This document shows, piece by piece, positions 8,863 to 33,297 of a stretch of DNA of 46,962 bases (positions are counted from its first letter, which is position 1; every line of letters begins with the position of its first letter). The position numbers and the translations under genes are program-made. The notes beneath the pieces are model-generated. The model had not been told where the DNA came from and ran no database searches. It saw nothing but the letters and a program-made list of their open reading frames with translations. Source of the DNA: Clostridium sp. (GTDB taxonomy: Bacteria; Bacillota; Clostridia; Clostridiales; Clostridiaceae); the NCBI RefSeq assembly GCF_029267215.1, contig NZ_JARIDH010000082.1:1-46962 (forward strand), read 5' to 3'.

Positions 8863-9525
8863 TTAGCTTGCACTTTTATCTCCAAAAAGCACAAAAAATG
8901 TTTTAATTATTAATTTTATATCAACTAATGTGTTTCTTTCTTCCACGTATTTAAGATCAAGCTTCATCCATTCTTGAAATCCTATATCATTTCTCCCCAT
9001 AACCTGCCAATAACATGTTAATCCAGGTTTTACTTCAAGTCTTTCCATCATCCATGGTTCAAATTGAGCCACTTCCTTAGGAAGACTTGGTCTAGGTCCA
9101 ACTAAACTCATTTCCCCTTTTAGAACATTTATAAGTTGAGGAAGCTCATCTATGCTTGTCTTTCTTATAAACCTTCCAATCTTAGTTATCCTTGGATCAT
9201 GCTTCATTTTAAACATTGGCCCGCTCATTTCATTCTGAGCCATTAATTTTTCTTTTAACTCTTCTGCATTACTAACCATAGATCTAAATTTATACATATA
9301 AAATTCCTTGCCATTTTGTCCAACTCTTTTTTGAGAAAAAAAAACTTTTCCCTTTGGATCTTCAACCTTAATTAAAATTGTTATTATTAAAATTAATGGA
9401 CTTAAAACTATTAATCCAAATATTGATGCAACCAAATCTATAGTTCGTTTACAAATTAAGTAGCTTTTTTTCCCTTCATTCGTTTTTTTTTCTTCTTTTT
9501 GAATCTTTTCCAGAGATTCATACAT
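8863..9525 (-). CDS. Undecaprenyl-phosphate sugar-1-phosphate transferase (capsule initiation)
   Basis: A 220-residue bacterial sugar transferase of the polyprenol phosphoglycosyltransferase (monotopic, WcaJ/PglC-like) family. One hydrophobic reentrant segment near residues 27-50 precedes the catalytic region: KVFFSQKRVGQNGKEFYMYKFRSM, with later DELPQLINVLKGEMSLVGPRP and KPGLTCYWQVMGRND. The Asp-Glu of IDELPQ is the catalytic dyad of the family. It is the short form, without the extra N-terminal helices of WbaP. It attaches the first sugar phosphate to undecaprenyl phosphate. Which sugar starts the repeat cannot be decided from sequence alone. Confidence 0.92.
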   Translation of the reverse strand: MYESLEKIQKEEKKTNEGKKSYLICKRTIDLVASIFGLIVLSPLILIITILIKVEDPKGKVFFSQKRVGQNGKEFYMYKFRSMVSNAEELKEKLMAQNEMSGPMFKMKHDPRITKIGRFIRKTSIDELPQLINVLKGEMSLVGPRPSLPKEVAQFEPWMMERLEVKPGLTCYWQVMGRNDIGFQEWMKLDLKYVEERNTLVDIKLIIKTFFVLFGDKSAS

Positions 9526-25735: not shown

Positions 25736-26479
25736 TTATTCTATTGTTTTCGCTTTAAAGCTATCAATTCCAATTCTATCTATAAAATCACCAAGTTTTT
25801 CTCCAGCTTCAGCCTCTTTTTTATAAACTTCTACTACTTTATCAACTATTCTTAAAGCTTCTTTTTCATCAACATCCTTAATAAGAATATCAGCCATTCT
25901 AGGATTATAACCTGCAGATCCTCCTACAGAAATTAAAAATCCTGTTTTATCTGCAATAACTCCAATATCTTTAGCATAAACACTTCCGCATGCATTTCTA
26001 CAGCCAGCAACCCCAATTTTAGTTCTACATGGCATATCCATATGTTTATACTTCTTTAATATTTTCATTCCAGTTCCTATAGTATTAAATTTAGATCTCT
26101 TACAAAAACCAGCTGGACAAATCTCCACATTCTTAATTGAATTTTGCTTCATAACAGCAGGTTCCATCCCAAGTTCTTCCCAAATCTTTGGCAAATCTTC
26201 TCCCTGTAAATTTGTAATCAAAATTCTTTGTCCTGAAGTTATCTTAATTACTCCACCATATTTCTTAGCAACTTTAGATATCTTCTCTAAATTCTCAGGA
26301 CTAATAAATCCACCTGGAATATGTGGTGTAATTCCAAATGTTCTTTTGCCATTTCTTATCTTTTGTAAATTTCCATGATGAGTTCCACTAACCATCTTTG
26401 GAATCTCAATTCCTATCTTATCCATATCAACACTATAGCAAGCTAAATTTATAATAAAATTACTAATATTAAATCCCAA
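25736..26479 (-). CDS. Nitrite/sulfite reductase-domain protein (sirohaem and 4Fe-4S type)
   Basis: A 247-residue frame holding one ferredoxin-like half-domain (about 40-110) and the sirohaem/4Fe-4S domain. Cysteines occur as CPAGFC and GCRNACG; HIPGGFISPENLEKI and TSGQRILI are conserved in short NirB-like or coenzyme-F420-free sulfite-reductase-type proteins. The first cysteine pair is spaced C-x4-C rather than the usual C-x5-C. The start is unsure: the TTG at 26479 has no good ribosome site, and the ATG 18 codons in (MDKIGIEIPK) is also poor. A CRP/FNR-type site precedes the gene. It may reduce nitrite or sulfite, or bind sirohaem without catalysis. Confidence 0.78.
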   Translation of the reverse strand: MGFNISNFIINLACYSVDMDKIGIEIPKMVSGTHHGNLQKIRNGKRTFGITPHIPGGFISPENLEKISKVAKKYGGVIKITSGQRILITNLQGEDLPKIWEELGMEPAVMKQNSIKNVEICPAGFCKRSKFNTIGTGMKILKKYKHMDMPCRTKIGVAGCRNACGSVYAKDIGVIADKTGFLISVGGSAGYNPRMADILIKDVDEKEALRIVDKVVEVYKKEAEAGEKLGDFIDRIGIDSFKAKTIE

Positions 26480-26555
26480 TATATTTATAAAAAAAGCTTA
26501 ACTACTAGACACCTCACTTTCTAATCAATAATTTTTTTATATATCCTATAACATT

Positions 26556-26596
26556 ATTATATCTTATATAAAAAATTTTAACGTAACCTTAGTTAC
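26556..26596 (-). promoter_or_regulatory. Promoter with a CRP/FNR-type (HcpR-like) site
   Basis: On the minus strand the inverted repeat GTAAC-N4-GTTAC (26583-26596) is centred about 31 bp upstream of the centre of a TATAAT box (26556-26561). That puts the site near -41, the usual place for a class II CRP/FNR activator. The motif agrees with the one I recall for HcpR in clostridia. A wider inverted pair AGACACC/GGTGTCT (about 26506-26512 and 26613-26619) brackets the region. Confidence 0.55.
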
Positions 26597-26627
26597 AAAT
26601 TTAATTATTATAGGTGTCTATAGTATT

Positions 26628-27134
26628 TTAATACTTAATACAGTCATTATTTAAATGCCATTTTTCTTTACATATATCTTCCTTTTCCTCAAAACATATT
26701 GTTGGCTCTTCGCACTTTTTAATTCCTTCAATGCATATTGTAATTATTGTATTAATAAATATATGTTCTAAACCACAATTATCAAAATCACAATAAGAAA
26801 CATGTCCCTCTACATTTTCTATCTTACTTCCACATTTTATTTTAATTTTTTCAAAGAAAGGAACCACAAACTTTTTACTTAAAACTTTTCCACAAGTACA
26901 TAAATTTGAAGCTTCATAAAAAACTTTCAATATTTTAATACCCTTAACTATAAGATAGTATTCAGAGCATATTTCTATAACTTTAGTCTCAATGATTTCA
27001 ACACAACAACTTACTTCTAATATATAATCTACTTTAAAACAATTATTTGCTAAACAAACCTCATCAATATATTTAAAGTCCTTTACCTTATTAAAATTAA
27101 AACATTTATAAGATTTATTACACTTGTTCTTCAT
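26628..27134 (-). CDS. Cysteine-rich SPOCS-like (DUF3794-like) protein
   Basis: A 168-residue protein with about 20 cysteines. The core (about residues 30-140: YILEVSCCVEIIETKVIEICSEYYLIVKGIKIL) parallels the beta-rich SPOCS domain of the two proteins encoded opposite, where the pattern is KVI followed by GRKLIVEG. In known proteins this domain occurs in spore-coat assembly factors. The protein has no signal peptide, fitting deposition from the mother cell. The SD-like AGGAGA is 26 bases before the ATG, with a small palindrome (27145-27159) in between. It is divergent from the collagen-like gene. The SPOCS assignment is weaker than for its neighbours. Confidence 0.62.
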   Translation of the reverse strand: MKNKCNKSYKCFNFNKVKDFKYIDEVCLANNCFKVDYILEVSCCVEIIETKVIEICSEYYLIVKGIKILKVFYEASNLCTCGKVLSKKFVVPFFEKIKIKCGSKIENVEGHVSYCDFDNCGLEHIFINTIITICIEGIKKCEEPTICFEEKEDICKEKWHLNNDCIKY

Positions 27135-27144
27135 ATAAAATTAC

Positions 27145-27159
27145 TTTACCAAAGGTAAA
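27145..27159. promoter_or_regulatory. TTTACC-AAA-GGTAAA palindrome between Shine-Dalgarno and start
   Basis: A 6-bp inverted repeat with a 3-nt centre lies between AGGAGA (27161-27166 complement) and the ATG at 27134. As RNA it could loop out and bring the distant ribosome site closer to the start; as DNA it could be a protein-binding site. Confidence 0.4.
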
Positions 27160-27318
27160 TTCTCCTTTCACACTCAATCTATAAAATAATATTTTATATT
27201 CACTATATTTTATTCAAAAGCAATATGTGTTGTTACTTTAAATATAAATGTTGTTTTTTATAATTTCATGGAACAACTTGTCTTTTATTGCATATTTATA
27301 GAATGAGAGGTGATAAAA

Positions 27319-28746
27319 ATGAGTATGTATCCAATTTACTATAATCCAGAATCAAATAGTAAAAATTTATCAGATGATTATTTACAACACTCATCTCATA
27401 TTAATTATGTAATTCCTCAATCACCAAACGATATTTCCTATAATGGAATAAATGGTCAAAATGGAGTAAATGGCCCTGCTGGTGCTCCAGGTCAAAACGG
27501 CCAAAATGGAATGAATGGTCCTGCTGGTGCTCCAGGTCAGAACGGTCAAAATGGAATAAACGGTCCTGCTGGTGCTCCAGGTCAGAACGGTCAAAATGGT
27601 TGCCAAGGCCCTCAGGGTCCTCAAGGTTGTCCTGGCCCTCAAGGTCCTCAGGGTTGCCAAGGTCCTCCTGGTCAAAATGGATTTCCTGGATGTCCCGGTC
27701 CTCAAGGTCCTCAAGGCCCTCCAGGTCCTCAAGGTTGCCAAGGTCCTCCTGGTCCTAAAGGTGATAACGGACAAATTTTACCTATATACTATCCTATAAT
27801 GAATTATGGAATGAATAATTGTTGCTGTAATTCTTGTTGTTGTGGATGCAAAGGCATACCAGGTCCTCCTGGTAAAGACGGTAAAGATGGTATAAATGGT
27901 TCTGATGGTAAAGACGGTAAAGATGGTACTGATGGCAAAGATGGCAAAGATGGTAAAGATGGTAAGGATGGATGTTGTTGCTTAAAATGTAACCATATTT
28001 GTAACAGTAGTTTTGAATTCCCACTAAATAGCAACTGTATTTGGAATATTGAAGGTGTTAAAAGAACTGATGAAAAAACTATTAATTCCTTAGCATCGTC
28101 AATAACCTTAGAAGGTTTAGGAACTCAAGTCAATGTAGATACAGGGAATTTTTGGAACGTTTCTCATAGCGGAGAATTTTCTGCTTATCTACAGCCCCAA
28201 CCTAATGTAGATAGAAGTGAATTTTCTCCTAGCTATCTAATACAAGTTGTTGATATAGATCCTGAATGTTCCTATTCACTAAATTTCTGGGGAGCAAAAT
28301 TTGATTATAATCATTATATAACTGGTGATGATATAAACACTAGAGATAGAGCAGCATATAATTTAATTACTGGTGCATATATTTTTTGGGGTGACTTTGT
28401 AAATATCTCAAATCCTATAACCCAATTCATAGAAAATCCAGCAAATTGGCCAATAACCGAAAAAATTTGTAACTATTCAGAAGCAGATCCTGTTGCTTCT
28501 ATATATATTCCTATAGGAGGAGCAGAACAAGTAGAAATATCTGGCGAAAGCCCTACACTTAAGTTACAAAATTATGATTTTGAATCATATACTCTAATTC
28601 CTAATTGTGATGGAAGTTCTATTTGTAATACTACTAGCAATATTCCTTCTGGAACAAATAAAGCTACAATCGTATTTGTAGCAGAATCTTATAATACAAG
28701 TAGACCTGGTGGTATATGGCTAATAGATGATGTTATATTATCTTAA
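27319..28746 (+). CDS. Collagen-like protein, probable spore-surface (BclA-like) filament protein
   Basis: A 475-residue protein in five parts: a non-collagenous N-terminus (about 1-45); a first Gly-X-Y block (about 46-153) with three 15-residue repeats ([15 protein letters not shown] type) and then GPQ/GPP triplets; a cysteine-rich hinge ([14 protein letters not shown], about 168-181); a second block of GKDG repeats (about 181-218) ending in CCC; and a beta-rich C-terminal domain of about 250 residues ending [13 protein letters not shown]. There is no signal peptide. Exosporium proteins BclA of Bacillus and C. difficile share the collagen-stalk-and-head design. The ATG at 27319 is preferred, as GAGAGGTGA is its ribosome site. 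SPOCS genes follow. Confidence 0.85.
27472..27606 (+). repeat. Three 45-bp tandem repeats within the collagen-like gene
   Basis: Units begin at 27472, 27517 and 27562 and each encodes a 15-residue unit of the [13 protein letters not shown] type. Copies 2 and 3 are nearly identical, differing mainly in the last codons. This points to recent expansion by slippage or recombination, so copy number may vary between strains. Confidence 0.9.
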
Positions 28747-28826
28747 TGAATTCAAATTTTAAAATATATATATATTTATTTTATTGCAAATGATACCTTA
28801 AACTAAATCTTAGGAGGATTATAAGA

Positions 28827-30077
28827 ATGGATAAACTAAACTGCTTATGTGGTTATGATAAAAATAAAAATCTTGATTGTAAATTAAAACCTTGTTCATG
28901 TGATAAAATATGTAAAAAAGATTGTTCTAAAGATAAATGTAAAGGCTGTAAATGCAATGGTGATTGTATAAAATATGAAGATGATTGTAATATTTGTGTT
29001 GATGAAGATAGCATATTCTTTTCAACTAATTGCGAACATCCAGATTGCTTTATTTTAGGTGATAATTGGCAAGAAGAAGTATTCGTCGGTACCGTTGTAG
29101 TTCCATGTGAAAAACCATCCATAGAACAAATAGATTCAATAAATGCTGATGTTCAAATAATAAGTAAAAAAGTTATACTAACTCCTTTTTTGAAAGATGC
29201 TACTGGATTACAAAATACTAATATAGAAGGTAAAATTACTACTGGTAGAAAGCTTATAGTAGAAGGTTTAATCTGCTTAAGTATTTCTTATGTGTCATTA
29301 AATATTGACCAAAGTGTTCACAGTTTCCACGGCCAAATACCATTCTCTTCTTTCATAGTTTTACCTGAAAATACAGATTTGGACCAAAACTTCTTAGTTG
29401 ATTCTTGTATAGAAAAAATTTGTGTCAATAAAGTTTGTGAAAGAAGTATAGATTTAACAGCCGCTATAATGATTAAAGCAACAAAAAGTGTTAATCTTTG
29501 TGCTGAATCTTTTTATAAAAATTATGGGGTTGATTGTACTTGTGACACTTCAAATTGTTCAGAACATGGATGTGGTATTGAACCTCTAATAATAAAAGGG
29601 GTTGCAACAGAGGATGAATTAACTAAAGTCTTAGTACCTGGAAAAAACCCAAGACTATGGACTGAAATTTCAGTTCCTGAATTATTAACAATTCCTTGCT
29701 TTAAACCTGATGTGAAGAAACTTCTAAGTGTAACATCTAGTGCTAAAATAGTATGCCAAAATGTTATAAAAACTCCTATTCCTCCACAGAATAATGAAGG
29801 ATTTAATTTAACTGGATTAAAACTTTTAGTTCATTTAATATTAAGACAAAGAATAACTTATGTGTCAACTGAAAACTGTAATTCTGTTCATTCTGCCCAC
29901 TATGATATACCAATCTCAGCTTATATAATTCTCCCAGATAACGACAACTTTGATATAGGTTCTAAATTCAAAATAGATGCTTATATAGAAGATTTATTTG
30001 CTTGCGCTATTAATGAAAGACAAGTATTTAAAAATACAACATTATTTATCAAAGCTGAATCTTTGGTATGTGATTAA
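28827..30077 (+). CDS. Double SPOCS-domain protein with cysteine-rich N-terminus
   Basis: A 416-residue protein. The first 65 residues carry about 17 cysteines in short spacings (CLCGYD, CSCDKICKKDC, CKGCKC). Two homologous beta-rich domains follow, near 85-235 and 255-415. Each has a TVVVPCEKPSIEQI-like lead, a KVILTP / NVIKTP strand, a G(R)KLIVEGLI-type strand, a YVS...VHS strand pair, and FIVLPENTDLD / IILPDNDNFD. These match the SPOCS (DUF3794) domain of clostridial spore proteins. AGGAGG precedes the ATG. It is co-oriented with the collagen-like gene 80 bp upstream and may anchor or cross-link it on the spore. Confidence 0.78.
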   Translation: MDKLNCLCGYDKNKNLDCKLKPCSCDKICKKDCSKDKCKGCKCNGDCIKYEDDCNICVDEDSIFFSTNCEHPDCFILGDNWQEEVFVGTVVVPCEKPSIEQIDSINADVQIISKKVILTPFLKDATGLQNTNIEGKITTGRKLIVEGLICLSISYVSLNIDQSVHSFHGQIPFSSFIVLPENTDLDQNFLVDSCIEKICVNKVCERSIDLTAAIMIKATKSVNLCAESFYKNYGVDCTCDTSNCSEHGCGIEPLIIKGVATEDELTKVLVPGKNPRLWTEISVPELLTIPCFKPDVKKLLSVTSSAKIVCQNVIKTPIPPQNNEGFNLTGLKLLVHLILRQRITYVSTENCNSVHSAHYDIPISAYIILPDNDNFDIGSKFKIDAYIEDLFACAINERQVFKNTTLFIKAESLVCD

Positions 30078-30094
30078 TAAGGAGGATTTGTATT

Positions 30095-30655
30095 ATGTAT
30101 TGCACATGTAATAAAGGTCATAATTACCAAGTAGTTGGATTATGTGATGTAGCTGATTTAGATGTATCAGGTAAAAAAAATTGGGCTCAAGTAATAATAC
30201 CTGAAGTATTATATATACCAGATTGTTATCCAGATATTGAAAATATCGAAAAAATTTATATAACTGTTGAAATTACAAAATCAATGGTTATAGAAACTCC
30301 TAGTTCAATTAAAGATGCCAATGGAGATTCTTTGATTGATGGTATGAATAATGAAGGCGCTATAGCAACTGGTAGAAAATTAATAGTTAGTGGAAAGTTA
30401 TGTCAAACAATAGTTTATACAGCTGATGTTTGCGTTCAATCTCTTCATTCAGTAAACTTTGAATATCCATTCTGTGAATATATAGTTTTACCTGAAGATG
30501 TTGATTTAGATCAAAATTTCTGTGTTGAAGCTTGTGTTGAAGATGTTTATGCTAAAGTTTTAACTCCAAAAACAATATTTAAAAGTGTAACTTTATTCTT
30601 ACTTGCAGAAAAGCTAGTTCCATCATGTCTACCTTTAAGTAGTTCAGATAATTAG
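30095..30655 (+). CDS. Single SPOCS-domain protein
   Basis: A 186-residue protein with MYCTCNKGH at its start and one SPOCS domain (about residues 33-175). The domain has WAQVIIPEVLYIPDCYPDIE, SMVIETPSS, ATGRKLIVSGKLCQTIVYTA, SLHSVNFEYPFCEYIVLPEDVDLDQNF and KTIFKSVTLFLLAEKL, closely matching the first domain of the preceding gene. AAGGAGG lies 9 bases before the ATG and the gap to the previous stop is 17 bp, so the two are one transcript. It probably arose by duplication of a domain of its neighbour. Inferred role: spore coat or exosporium structure. Confidence 0.8.
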   Translation: MYCTCNKGHNYQVVGLCDVADLDVSGKKNWAQVIIPEVLYIPDCYPDIENIEKIYITVEITKSMVIETPSSIKDANGDSLIDGMNNEGAIATGRKLIVSGKLCQTIVYTADVCVQSLHSVNFEYPFCEYIVLPEDVDLDQNFCVEACVEDVYAKVLTPKTIFKSVTLFLLAEKLVPSCLPLSSSDN

Positions 30656-30699
30656 TACTAGCTATAACTAATTTTTTTAAAATAATAATATATTATAAA

Positions 30700-30783
30700 A
30701 GGCTATATTAAGATTTTTCATAAAACTTATAAATATTAAAAGTATATTTATAAGTTTTACTATTTAAAATCATAATATAGCCT
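30700..30783. repeat. Family A palindromic element, short copy, possibly acting as terminator
   Basis: AGGCTATATTA (30700-30710) is inverted at 30773-30783, and AAAACTTATAAATAT is inverted at 30742-30756. The same two blocks, in the same order and spacing, form the ends of the 240-bp element at 12380-12620. It lies 45 bp past the SPOCS stop and its RNA would fold into one long hairpin. Confidence 0.7.
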
Positions 30784-30911
30784 AATTAATTTAAAGCTAT
30801 AATTTATAATTTTCAACTTAATTCTATTATAATTCCAACTCTACCCATCTTTGCACTCTTTAGTTCTACAATTTCACCTTATAATTTTTTAGTTAATCTC
30901 TATCATTTGTT

Positions 30912-30993
30912 ATAAGAATAGATAAAAATATTTTTATCTATTCTTATGTAACTTAGTCACTTAAGTATTTTATAAAATCAAATATACTTAAGT
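30912..30993. promoter_or_regulatory. Three successive palindromes upstream of the ferredoxin gene
   Basis: First, a perfect 36-bp palindrome at 30912-30947 (ATAAGAATAGATAAAAAT and its complement with no loop). Second, GTAAC-TTA-GTCAC at 30948-30960. Third, ACTTAAGTAT at 30959-30968 inverted at 30984-30993. They lie 33 to 115 bp before the ferredoxin start, where promoter and operators are expected. The first could also be a terminator for the preceding operon. Confidence 0.55.
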
Positions 30994-31025
30994 AATAAAC
31001 TTAGTTATTAATAAGGAGGATTTAA

Positions 31026-31247
31026 ATGGATAAAAAATCAACAAAACTTATTGTTAAAAAAAAAGCCTTTGTAGATATATCTCTTTGTGTAGCATGTGGA
31101 TCTTGCACTAAAGTCTGCCCAATAAATGCAATTACTATAAATAAAGGGATTCATGCAAATGTTGATTTAAATAAATGTATAGGTTGCTCTAAATGTGCTA
31201 AAGAATGTCCTGCTTCTATAATAGAAATAGTAGATCTTATGGGATAG
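31026..31247 (+). CDS. Ferredoxin with two [4Fe-4S] clusters
   Basis: A 73-residue protein with the two classic motifs: CVACGSCTKVCP (about residues 19-30) and CIGCSKCAKECP (about 49-60). Each is C-x2-C-x2-C-x3-C-P, giving two [4Fe-4S] clusters. A basic N-terminal extension (MDKKSTKLIVKKKAF) precedes them. AAGGAGG lies seven bases before the ATG. The next gene, 58 bp on, codes for a membrane protein with Fe-S-type cysteine motifs, so the two may form an electron-transfer pair. The redox partner is not known. Confidence 0.9.
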   Translation: MDKKSTKLIVKKKAFVDISLCVACGSCTKVCPINAITINKGIHANVDLNKCIGCSKCAKECPASIIEIVDLMG

Positions 31248-31305
31248 CTAAAATCAATAATAACTTAAAACATAATAAAAACTTTAAATTATGGAGGATT
31301 TATAT

Positions 31306-31875
31306 ATGAAAAAGAAACTTTTTAGAGAATATCTTTGGATATTTTCTAGTTTATATTTAATACTTGGATTATTTAATATACTTTTTGCTTGGCTTGGACT
31401 TATATGTTTTATTGTTCCTCTTCTTATCTCCTTATTAGGAGGAGGTAAAAAATATTGTAATGAGTTTTGTGGTAGAGGACAACTATTAGATTTATTAGGA
31501 AAAAAACTTAAACTATCTAGGAAAAAAACTATGCCTAGATTTTTTGTAAGCAAATATTTTAGATATGGATTTTTAACCTTCTTTTTATTTATGTTTTTTA
31601 ATATGCTTATCTCAACTTACCTTGTTTTTAAAGGTACAAACTCCTTAAAAGAAGTTATTACACTGCTTTGGACATTTAAACTTTCTTGGAAATTAAATGG
31701 CTTAACTAATGTATCCCCTTGGATAACTCAGTTTGCCTTTGGTTTCTATAGTTTAATGTTGACTTCAACCCTATTAGGAATAATAACTTCAATTCTATAT
31801 AAGCCTCGTTCTTGGTGTATTTATTGTCCAATGGGAACAATGACTCAAGGAATATGCAAATTAAAAAACAAATAA
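31306..31875 (+). CDS. Polytopic membrane protein with NapH/NosR-like Fe-S cysteine motifs
   Basis: A 189-residue protein with about four membrane helices (near 10-45, 85-110 and 140-165). It has two cysteine pairs on the same side: KKYCNEFCGRG (after the first helices) and SWCIYCPMGTMTQGICKL (C-terminus). CxxCP-type motifs next to helices recall the NapH/NosR/CcoG group of membrane electron carriers. The start is at the ATG at 31306 (MKKKLF); the earlier ATG at 31291 is part of the ribosome site GGAGG. It is co-transcribed with the ferredoxin. Its cluster content and role are uncertain. Confidence 0.75.
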   Translation: MKKKLFREYLWIFSSLYLILGLFNILFAWLGLICFIVPLLISLLGGGKKYCNEFCGRGQLLDLLGKKLKLSRKKTMPRFFVSKYFRYGFLTFFLFMFFNMLISTYLVFKGTNSLKEVITLLWTFKLSWKLNGLTNVSPWITQFAFGFYSLMLTSTLLGIITSILYKPRSWCIYCPMGTMTQGICKLKNK

Positions 31876-31888
31876 AATAAAAAAATTA

Positions 31889-31923
31889 AAGAGTATGAGT
31901 TAGTATTAAAACCTCATACTCTT
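31889..31923. terminator. Bidirectional intrinsic terminator
   Basis: AAGAGTATGAG pairs with CTCATACTCTT around a 13-nt loop, flanked by A-rich and T-rich tracts. It lies between the converging Fe-S membrane protein and CNNM genes and can serve both. Confidence 0.88.
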
Positions 31924-31956
31924 CTTTATTACTTATTGAATACTATTACTTATTTT

Positions 31957-33297
31957 TTAATTGTTTAATATAATCTCAGGTTTAAAAGAACTAGTTTGAT
32001 TTTTTAAACAAATCCTAAGTTTCTCTATTCTCTTCTTATTTGTTTTACAAACTTGAAATGAAAGATCTTGATATTCAATCATTTCATTTTCTTTTTGTGG
32101 TATATTACCTATAAGATTAACCACAAAACCACCAATTGTTTCAATGTCTTTACTTTCAAGATTTAAATTTAAACTATCATTTAACTTGTCCAAAGGTAAT
32201 AAACCATCAACTACATAGGTATTATTATCTATTTTATCTATGAAGCTTTCTGAGTCATCATATTCATCTAATATATCGCCCATAACTTCCTCAATTAAAT
32301 CTTCTATAGTAGCAATTCCTGAAAAACCACCATACTCATCTATTACAACAGCCATATGTTGTTTACTATCTTGAAGTTCTTTAAATAAATCATCAATAAC
32401 TTTATTTTCAAGAACAAAATAAGCAGGTCTTATTAATTGATCCAATTTGATATTTTCCACTCCAACCTTAACAACAGCTTCAAAGAAATCTTTTAAATAA
32501 AGTACTCCTACTATGTTATCCTTATTATCAGAATAAACAGGAATTCTTGAAAACTGCTCACTTATAAGATTCTTAGCTATAACATCATTTGGAGTTGAAG
32601 ATTTTATTGCAAAAACTTCCCCTCTAGGTGTCATAACTTCTTTTACTGATTTGTGGTCAAATTCAAATATACCATCTAACATATCTTTTTCTGTCTTATC
32701 AATTACACCAATTTCTTGTCCAATATTTATCATGGACATTATTTCATCCTTTGACACAGTTTCTTCTTGATGCTTATTATTTAATCCTAAAATTTTAATA
32801 AATAAATTTGTAGAAGCTGATAAAAGTTTTACAAAGGGTGTTGATATTTTAGATACAAAAGATATTGGTCTTATAGCCATTAAAGCTATTTCTTCTGGCT
32901 TCTGTAATGCAATTCTCTTTGGAAGTAACTCTCCAAATACTAAAGTTACATAAGACAAAAGCATAGTTATAAGTATAACTGATATTTCACTACCATAAGG
33001 AATGTTTAGCTTATGCATGAATTGTGCTAGGTTTTCTGAAATGCTAGTGGCTGCTGATGCACTGGCAAAAAATCCTGCAAATGTTATTCCAATTTGAATA
33101 GTAGATAAAAAGTTACTTGGTGATTTTAACACCTTTCTTAATAAAAGGGCTTTCTTATTCCCTTTCTCTGCAAGTACCTTTATCTTTGATTTATTCACAG
33201 ATACCATTGCCATCTCTGCAGCTGCAAAAAATGCATTAATTAAGATAAGAACTAATATTAGAATAATTTTAGGTAAAATACTGGGACTCGGGTCCAT
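31957..33297 (-). CDS. CNNM/CorC-type (hemolysin-related) transporter family protein
   Basis: A 446-residue protein with three parts. The N-terminal DUF21/CNNM membrane domain (about 1-190) has NAFFAAAEMAMVSVNKSKIKVLAEKGNKKA and FGELLPKRIALQKPEEIA. A pair of CBS domains (about 205-335) has VKEVMTPRGEVFAI and HMAVVIDEYGGFSGIATIEDLIEEVMGDI. The C-terminal CorC_HlyC domain covers about 350-430. Family members take part in Mg2+ or Co2+ homeostasis; the hemolysin name is historical. AGGAGG precedes the ATG. It is monocistronic and shares a bidirectional terminator with the converging gene. Confidence 0.92.
   Translation of the reverse strand: MDPSPSILPKIILILVLILINAFFAAAEMAMVSVNKSKIKVLAEKGNKKALLLRKVLKSPSNFLSTIQIGITFAGFFASASAATSISENLAQFMHKLNIPYGSEISVILITMLLSYVTLVFGELLPKRIALQKPEEIALMAIRPISFVSKISTPFVKLLSASTNLFIKILGLNNKHQEETVSKDEIMSMINIGQEIGVIDKTEKDMLDGIFEFDHKSVKEVMTPRGEVFAIKSSTPNDVIAKNLISEQFSRIPVYSDNKDNIVGVLYLKDFFEAVVKVGVENIKLDQLIRPAYFVLENKVIDDLFKELQDSKQHMAVVIDEYGGFSGIATIEDLIEEVMGDILDEYDDSESFIDKIDNNTYVVDGLLPLDKLNDSLNLNLESKDIETIGGFVVNLIGNIPQKENEMIEYQDLSFQVCKTNKKRIEKLRICLKNQTSSFKPEIILNN

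Follow-up and report, generated by a model that had tools for sequence, protein, structure and literature searches.

A collagen-like stalk protein among SPOCS-domain genes of Clostridium: a recurring and probable spore-surface locus

In the clostridial exosporium, genes for collagen-like proteins and for cysteine-rich proteins are co-located, as with BclA and CsxA, and self-assembly of CsxA has been published (PMC7333573, PMC4942563). These reports state that it is unknown how clostridial spores hold their collagen-like filaments, the Bacillus anchor ExsF/BxpB being missing there. A "CsxA-like" domain has been proposed as the anchor of an appendage in the lattice (PMC11952670). The SPOCS domain (DUF3794, PF12673), in turn, is named for SpoVID, CotE and SipL, and that of SpoVID binds CotE and SafA during coat assembly (PMC10867305; phyletic link, PMC10659427). 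Here we analyse a contig of Clostridium sp. (NZ_JARIDH010000082.1, assembly GCF_029267215.1; 46,962 nt, called the window, to which all coordinates refer unless a locus is named) in which a collagen-like protein with a C-terminal head lies among SPOCS genes. The locus is real and recurring, and most likely belongs to the spore surface, where head-capped stalks would stand on a SPOCS scaffold.

The locus comprises four neighbouring open reading frames (ORFs) at 26628-30655, namely a divergent SPOCS gene, a stalk-head gene and two co-oriented SPOCS genes, with the following features:

26628..27134, minus strand: type-B (short, cysteine-rich) SPOCS protein, 168 aa, 17 Cys (held-out profile, homologue, hhalign)
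27206..27234, minus strand: sigma-K-like promoter candidate for 26628-27134, AACA N16 AATAAAATA, 1 mismatch (motif scan, weak)
27319..28746, plus strand: collagen-like stalk protein with globular C-terminal head, 475 aa (ORF, Pfam Collagen, triplet count)
27445..27777, plus strand: first Gly-X-Y stalk, 37 triplets, aa 43-153 (triplet count)
27820..27849, plus strand: cysteine cluster between both stalk segments, aa 168-177 (sequence)
27844..27978, plus strand: second Gly-X-Y stalk, 15 triplets, aa 176-220 (triplet count)
27973..28002, plus strand: cysteine cluster at the stalk-head junction, aa 219-228 (sequence)
27985..28743, plus strand: C-terminal head, about 250 aa, predicted mostly beta by a weak model (comparison, model)
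28827..30077, plus strand: double-SPOCS protein, 416 aa, 30 Cys, with a cysteine-rich N-terminal arm holding 15 Cys in the first 75 aa (PF12673 twice)
30095..30655, plus strand: single-SPOCS protein, 186 aa, 10 Cys, all-beta model with six long strands, pLDDT 89 (PF12673, model)

Of the 43 non-overlapping ORFs in the window that reach 80 aa, none is as rich in cysteine as the four locus proteins (10.1, 7.2, 5.4 and 4.6% against a median of 1.0%; the 73-aa ferredoxin-type ORF at 31026-31247, under the length limit, is unranked). A preliminary description, made from the DNA sequence, had read the locus as a Gly-X-Y protein with a C-terminal head flanked by three SPOCS-type proteins, and both elements of that reading hold. 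Eight window proteins, from 25736 to 33297, were scanned against Pfam. The double-SPOCS protein carries two PF12673 stretches (E 6.4e-16) and the single-SPOCS protein one such domain (E 1.1e-8), all over the curated cut-off. The divergent protein had no Pfam or NCBIfam match at E <= 1, but is recovered by a type-B SPOCS profile built from six relatives, from which both it and its homologue in another genus (E 5.1e-8) were excluded; it scored 44.9 bits (E 2.2e-14), whereas no shuffle among 500 exceeded 1.7 bits. Since the held-out profile recovers the divergent protein, the locus holds three SPOCS-type proteins with four domains. The type-B and type-A SPOCS profiles align with each other at 99.9% in hhalign. 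The 186-aa single-SPOCS protein, modelled with 69 aligned sequences, is predicted to be all-beta (predicted local distance difference test, pLDDT, 89.4; predicted template modelling score, pTM, 0.81). The double-SPOCS protein has no sequence match to a solved structure at E <= 1, and the sole candidate for a solved relative of the SPOCS profile (E 0.067) was set aside as implausible.

For the stalk protein, the listed start is a GTG at 27310; the ATG at 27319, preceded by GAGAGG, is likelier and gives the 475-aa product. Its 52 Gly-X-Y triplets fall in two runs, the longest run in 2,000 protein shuffles being 8, and it matches Pfam Collagen with an E-value of 4.4e-26. Both cysteine clusters contain CCC. 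The Gly-X-Y stalk with a C-terminal head recalls BclA of the Bacillus cereus group, and the preliminary description had pointed to BclA-type collagen proteins, which form exosporium hairs. Kinship with BclA is not supported: at E <= 1 neither a BclA-C (C1q-like) head nor an exosporium leader was matched in Pfam or NCBIfam, and the head belongs to no library family. Specifically, it has no Pfam match at E <= 1 and no sequence match in the PDB, and NCBIfam gives a sub-threshold hint of NTTRR-F1 only. Because its model is poor (pLDDT 57, pTM 0.70, built from three sequences), no fold name is assigned to it. The head is also rare, being found in two of the 58 relatives searched (the window's genome and Clostridium tarantellae) and in one of 391 genomes of the class, the window's own.

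The same layout recurs in relatives. In C. tarantellae (G004), which like C. mediterraneense (G002) shares its genus with the window's genome, locus L061 has the same order: a divergent 201-aa SPOCS gene (28 Cys), a head protein, a double-SPOCS and a single-SPOCS gene. The C. tarantellae head is 34-35% identical to that of the window, and the stalk beneath it (L047:1946-3265) is Asn/Ser-rich with no Gly-X-Y run of at least 6 triplets, so that under a common head the stalk is collagen in the window (27445-27978) and Asn/Ser-rich in C. tarantellae. In the Clostridiales metagenome-assembled genome (MAG) Tobar18m-G8 (L086), a 436-aa collagen protein of 60 triplets shares the head (best-domain E 1.5e-24); it is faced by a divergent pair of SPOCS genes (154 and 181 aa), and three more SPOCS genes come after it. 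A divergent cysteine-rich SPOCS gene, a stalk-head gene and two or three co-oriented SPOCS genes thus form a recurring arrangement, and all three heads found (window, C. tarantellae and L086) stand beside SPOCS genes. The N-termini of the three stalk proteins read MSMY, MSYY and MSGY.

This recurrent pairing bears on whether the collagen-like protein is a vegetative cell-surface adhesin adjoining SPOCS genes by chance. Its Gly-X-Y part is weakly similar to the Scl and Lcl adhesins, although far under the NCBIfam cut-offs; the scanned window proteins, however, contain no anchor domain in Pfam, the N-terminus shows no evident signal peptide as judged by eye, and the pairing of head and SPOCS genes recurs for each of the three heads found. 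We consider an adhesin of this kind highly improbable.

The nearest known context of the window SPOCS proteins is the ribbon-appendage region of Clostridium taeniosporum, whose published order is CRD1 (564), HYPO1, HYPO2 (158), HYPO3 (160), CRD2 (413), P29a (269), GP85, P29b (269) and CL2 (PMC5749712). In C. weizhouense (L070, 5442-14713) we find genes of 556, 161, 166 (158 from an internal Met), 160, 413 and 269 residues, a collagen gene, one of 268 residues and a second collagen gene, which reproduce the C. taeniosporum region in order and nearly in lengths, the comparison being between the C. weizhouense genes and the published description. The C. mediterraneense cluster (L049:10219-16050) corresponds to the HYPO1-to-P29b part (166, 158, 160, 421, 269, a collagen protein of 351, and 266), followed by a glycosyltransferase-like gene, with no CRD1 or CL2 seen alongside. 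Both species may make ribbon-type appendages too. The C. weizhouense counterparts of HYPO2 and CRD2 carry SPOCS over the Pfam cut-off; that of HYPO3 lies below it (E 8e-4) and matches a purpose-built SPOCS profile at E 2e-43, and that of CRD1, with no Pfam SPOCS match at E <= 0.001, matches the same kind of profile at E 3e-27. The domains of the HYPO2, HYPO3 and CRD2 counterparts are related to those of the window. The likeness between the window and C. taeniosporum, drawn through C. weizhouense and not from C. taeniosporum sequence, thus consists in collagen-like proteins adjoining small SPOCS proteins. Gene order differs, none of the collagen proteins in the appendage-type clusters matches the window head, and the window locus lacks a DUF11 protein of the P29 or CRD kind (no DUF11 match among the eight proteins scanned), with a double-SPOCS protein in place of DUF11-SPOCS.

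A wider scan of a genome collection, which rests on two short peptide patterns and is not an unbiased survey, gave 29 named loci, among them loci of Clostridium, Sporomusa, Acetivibrio, Halanaerobacter, Thermosyntropha and some Bacillaceae. In many of them small SPOCS genes stand in tandem, and very large proteins are frequent neighbours. Among SPOCS proteins of at least 380 aa, 16 of 26 have the first-listed domain at the C-terminal end; of the nine exceeding 1,000 aa, all eight complete ones end in SPOCS, and the ninth (L079) is cut inside SPOCS by the end of the locus. Five of these nine giants were scanned in Pfam, and all five combine DUF11 repeats with a C-terminal SPOCS domain. Giants of 1,800 to 2,700 aa with one C-terminal SPOCS domain lie near small SPOCS genes at L065:8304-13730, L068:10602-17354, L072:3263-10408 and L079:11786-19883; the first three were scanned in Pfam and have DUF11 repeats, while L079 is cut by the locus end. 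Two Sporomusa proteins, with 64 (L063:11122-13029) and 55 cysteines (L088:11117-12664), carry their SPOCS domain at the N-terminus. Two to four SPOCS genes are neighbours in Halobacillus, Pontibacillus, Anoxybacillus and Oceanobacillus (L080-L085), and none of these six genomes has a collagen match.

The giants of the sister loci, in which DUF11 repeats precede a terminal SPOCS domain, resemble appendage proteins, and together with the C. taeniosporum context they suggest that the window locus might build a discrete appendage, ribbon or fibre, and not an all-over exosporium nap. The missing DUF11 and the unmatched head noted above count against such a structure, which we regard as unlikely as a separate explanation; it overlaps the scaffold with head-capped stalks that we favour, whose form is left open.

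Co-occurrence of collagen-like genes with SPOCS neighbours, which the preliminary description had suggested looking for, is seen more often than expected. A census covering the genomes of 28 of the 29 loci (L076 left out) and the window's own, with collagen genes hand-counted as distinct frames over cut-off (sub-cut-off rows and opposite-strand frames inside one G554 collagen gene being omitted), gave 29 genes in 12 genomes, eight of them near SPOCS. Outside the window's genome, 7 of 27 lie within about 11 kb of a SPOCS locus, where 0.18 would be expected assuming 22 kb per genome, and they occur in 5 of the 11 other collagen-bearing genomes. The seven cases are not all independent, because the query was seeded from the genome that holds L071, a locus homologous to L070; the case of L072 presumes that contig C1 is the locus contig, which would place the collagen gene 106 bases past the stretch taken. 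The combination of stalk and SPOCS proteins is supported.

The CsxA/BclA cluster of Clostridium sporogenes resembles the window in having a cysteine-rich candidate basal-layer gene near collagen-like genes. Traits that define CsxA are self-assembly into a hexagonal disulfide-linked sheet and a gene position between zapA and a U32 peptidase gene, and CsxA-like candidates were picked by this gene context and not by name. Their profile shows no detectable relation to SPOCS (hhalign 0.36%), a result from a shallow, context-picked alignment (Neff 1.7), and in the window's genome zapA is on contig C46 and the window on contig C15, so the locus is not beside zapA. On this context and profile comparison, identity of the SPOCS proteins with CsxA itself is not supported. 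A DUF7852 protein adjoining CsxA-like genes is at most a faint relative of SPOCS (hhalign 10.8%). In MAG L062 a SPOCS pair is followed, at a distance, by what appears by eye to be a relative of the ORF adjoining CsxA-like genes. With F-ENA-3 and F-Anchor-3 of Clostridium aceticum the window shares the idea that a lattice-type domain plugs a fibre into the exosporium (PMC11952670), but unlike F-ENA it has no DUF4183 match in the scanned proteins.

SipL and SpoVID have in common with the window the SPOCS domain, and the locus could be read in their image, its SPOCS proteins being internal morphogenetic linkers: they would bind the SpoIVA basement and bring in the collagen protein, but would build no outer scaffold themselves. 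The naming of the domain and the binding of CotE and SafA by SpoVID, cited above, speak for this. Unlike SipL, however, in which SPOCS is joined to a C-terminal LysM, the scanned window proteins have no LysM match, are cysteine-rich and cluster with a collagen gene; the window's genome has a separate SipL-like gene with three SPOCS domains; and small tandem SPOCS genes recurring near giant or collagen proteins fit subunits better than a single linker. We think a purely linking role improbable. Within the window's family, 136 of the 146 genomes have the domain, chiefly through SipL-like genes.

The assignment to the spore surface made in the preliminary description is supported by the SPOCS proteins, the presence of SpoIVA and the SipL-like gene in the window's genome, the recurring layout and the relatives in appendage-type clusters. 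It had held that occurrence of the locus in non-sporulating relatives would speak against a spore role, and nominally such occurrence is found; SpoIVA is over cut-off in seven of eight genomes examined, with a weak match in the 1.0-Mb MAG of L062. Perfect sigma-K-type sites precede the type-B gene of L061 and the collagen gene of L086.

On balance, we lean towards a spore-surface SPOCS scaffold bearing head-capped stalks as the best explanation overall. The products would come together in the mother cell at a late stage of sporulation, forming a structure on the spore surface. The double, single and short, very cysteine-rich SPOCS proteins would be beta-rich subunits that associate and become a disulfide-linked scaffold, which could be a sheet comparable to an exosporium basal layer or could form an appendage base. 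The collagen-like protein would trimerise, be locked by its two CCC-containing clusters and attach via its N-terminal side, with the head directed outwards as the spore's contact point. The analysis establishes the genes and their domains, a predicted SPOCS fold, the recurrence of the layout and the connection with appendage-type clusters; the timing, location, polymer formation, disulfides and anchored end, like the holding of the stalk by a SPOCS basal layer, are inferred.

Several observations weigh against this explanation. The collagen protein has no SPOCS domain, which leaves its attachment unexplained, and in C. tarantellae the head and the SPOCS genes persist although the stalk is not collagen. 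The pairing of all three heads with SPOCS genes is partly a matter of selection, because the L086 head was found among loci picked for SPOCS. The principal appendage proteins reported for C. taeniosporum are P29a, P29b and GP85 and not their SPOCS-type neighbours (PMC5749712). Several small SPOCS proteins of other loci have only 0-3 Cys, with a median of 3.0% Cys across 97 proteins of <260 aa, so disulfide linking cannot be general among them. No collagen match is present in 16 of the 28 locus genomes searched, and one more has a sub-cut-off match only, so collagen would be one of several cargoes. One of the two perfect sigma-K-type sites in L061 belongs to an unrelated gene, and sites with at most one mismatch occur in 5 of 29 upstream regions of the window (two in the locus), 4 of 9 in L061 and 4 of 9 in L086; as a scan of this kind does not discriminate, promoters do not settle the spore reading.

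Around the locus, a short nitrite/sulfite-reductase-type protein (25736-26479) lies on one side and two 4Fe-4S proteins (31026-31875) on the other. At 8863-9525 the window encodes an exopolysaccharide-type sugar-phosphate transferase (TIGR03025, 0.15 bits below cut-off), in a long minus-strand gene run that is perhaps a polysaccharide cluster. No RNA feature was found in the window (no Rfam match at gathering scores, no tRNA).

A collagen stalk on a cysteine-rich base is already known as a kind, and the preliminary claim that the combination was undescribed is to that extent weakened, as both the co-location of collagen and cysteine-rich genes (PMC7333573) and a "CsxA-like" appendage anchor (PMC11952670) are in print. 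What is new, as far as searched, is the SPOCS base, together with the rare head, the swap of stalks and the bridge to the ribbon-appendage cluster. Among open-access papers searched by title and abstract, with most subscription papers outside the search, none tied SPOCS to exosporium or appendage clusters; because of that scope, the novelty of the link between SPOCS and appendages is unproven.

More broadly, and more tentatively than for the locus itself, SPOCS might be less a coat-morphogen domain than a module with which Firmicutes in general build the spore surface and dock proteins to it, a generalisation that we judge conceivable but somewhat short of probable. Paired small SPOCS proteins would polymerise into the base of a sheet or fibre, into which cargo would plug, be it DUF11 giants, held by the SPOCS domain at their end, or stalks with a head, whether of collagen or of low complexity. 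The window would then represent the minimal form with a collagen stalk, its head and base being conserved and its stalk open to exchange. If the SPOCS scaffold is real, a domain known until now from coat morphogenesis would be a candidate for the spore surface too, and the unexplained genes of the C. taeniosporum ribbon cluster would gain a testable role. The collagen and Asn/Ser-rich stalks under the same head offer a natural test of the purpose of the stalk.

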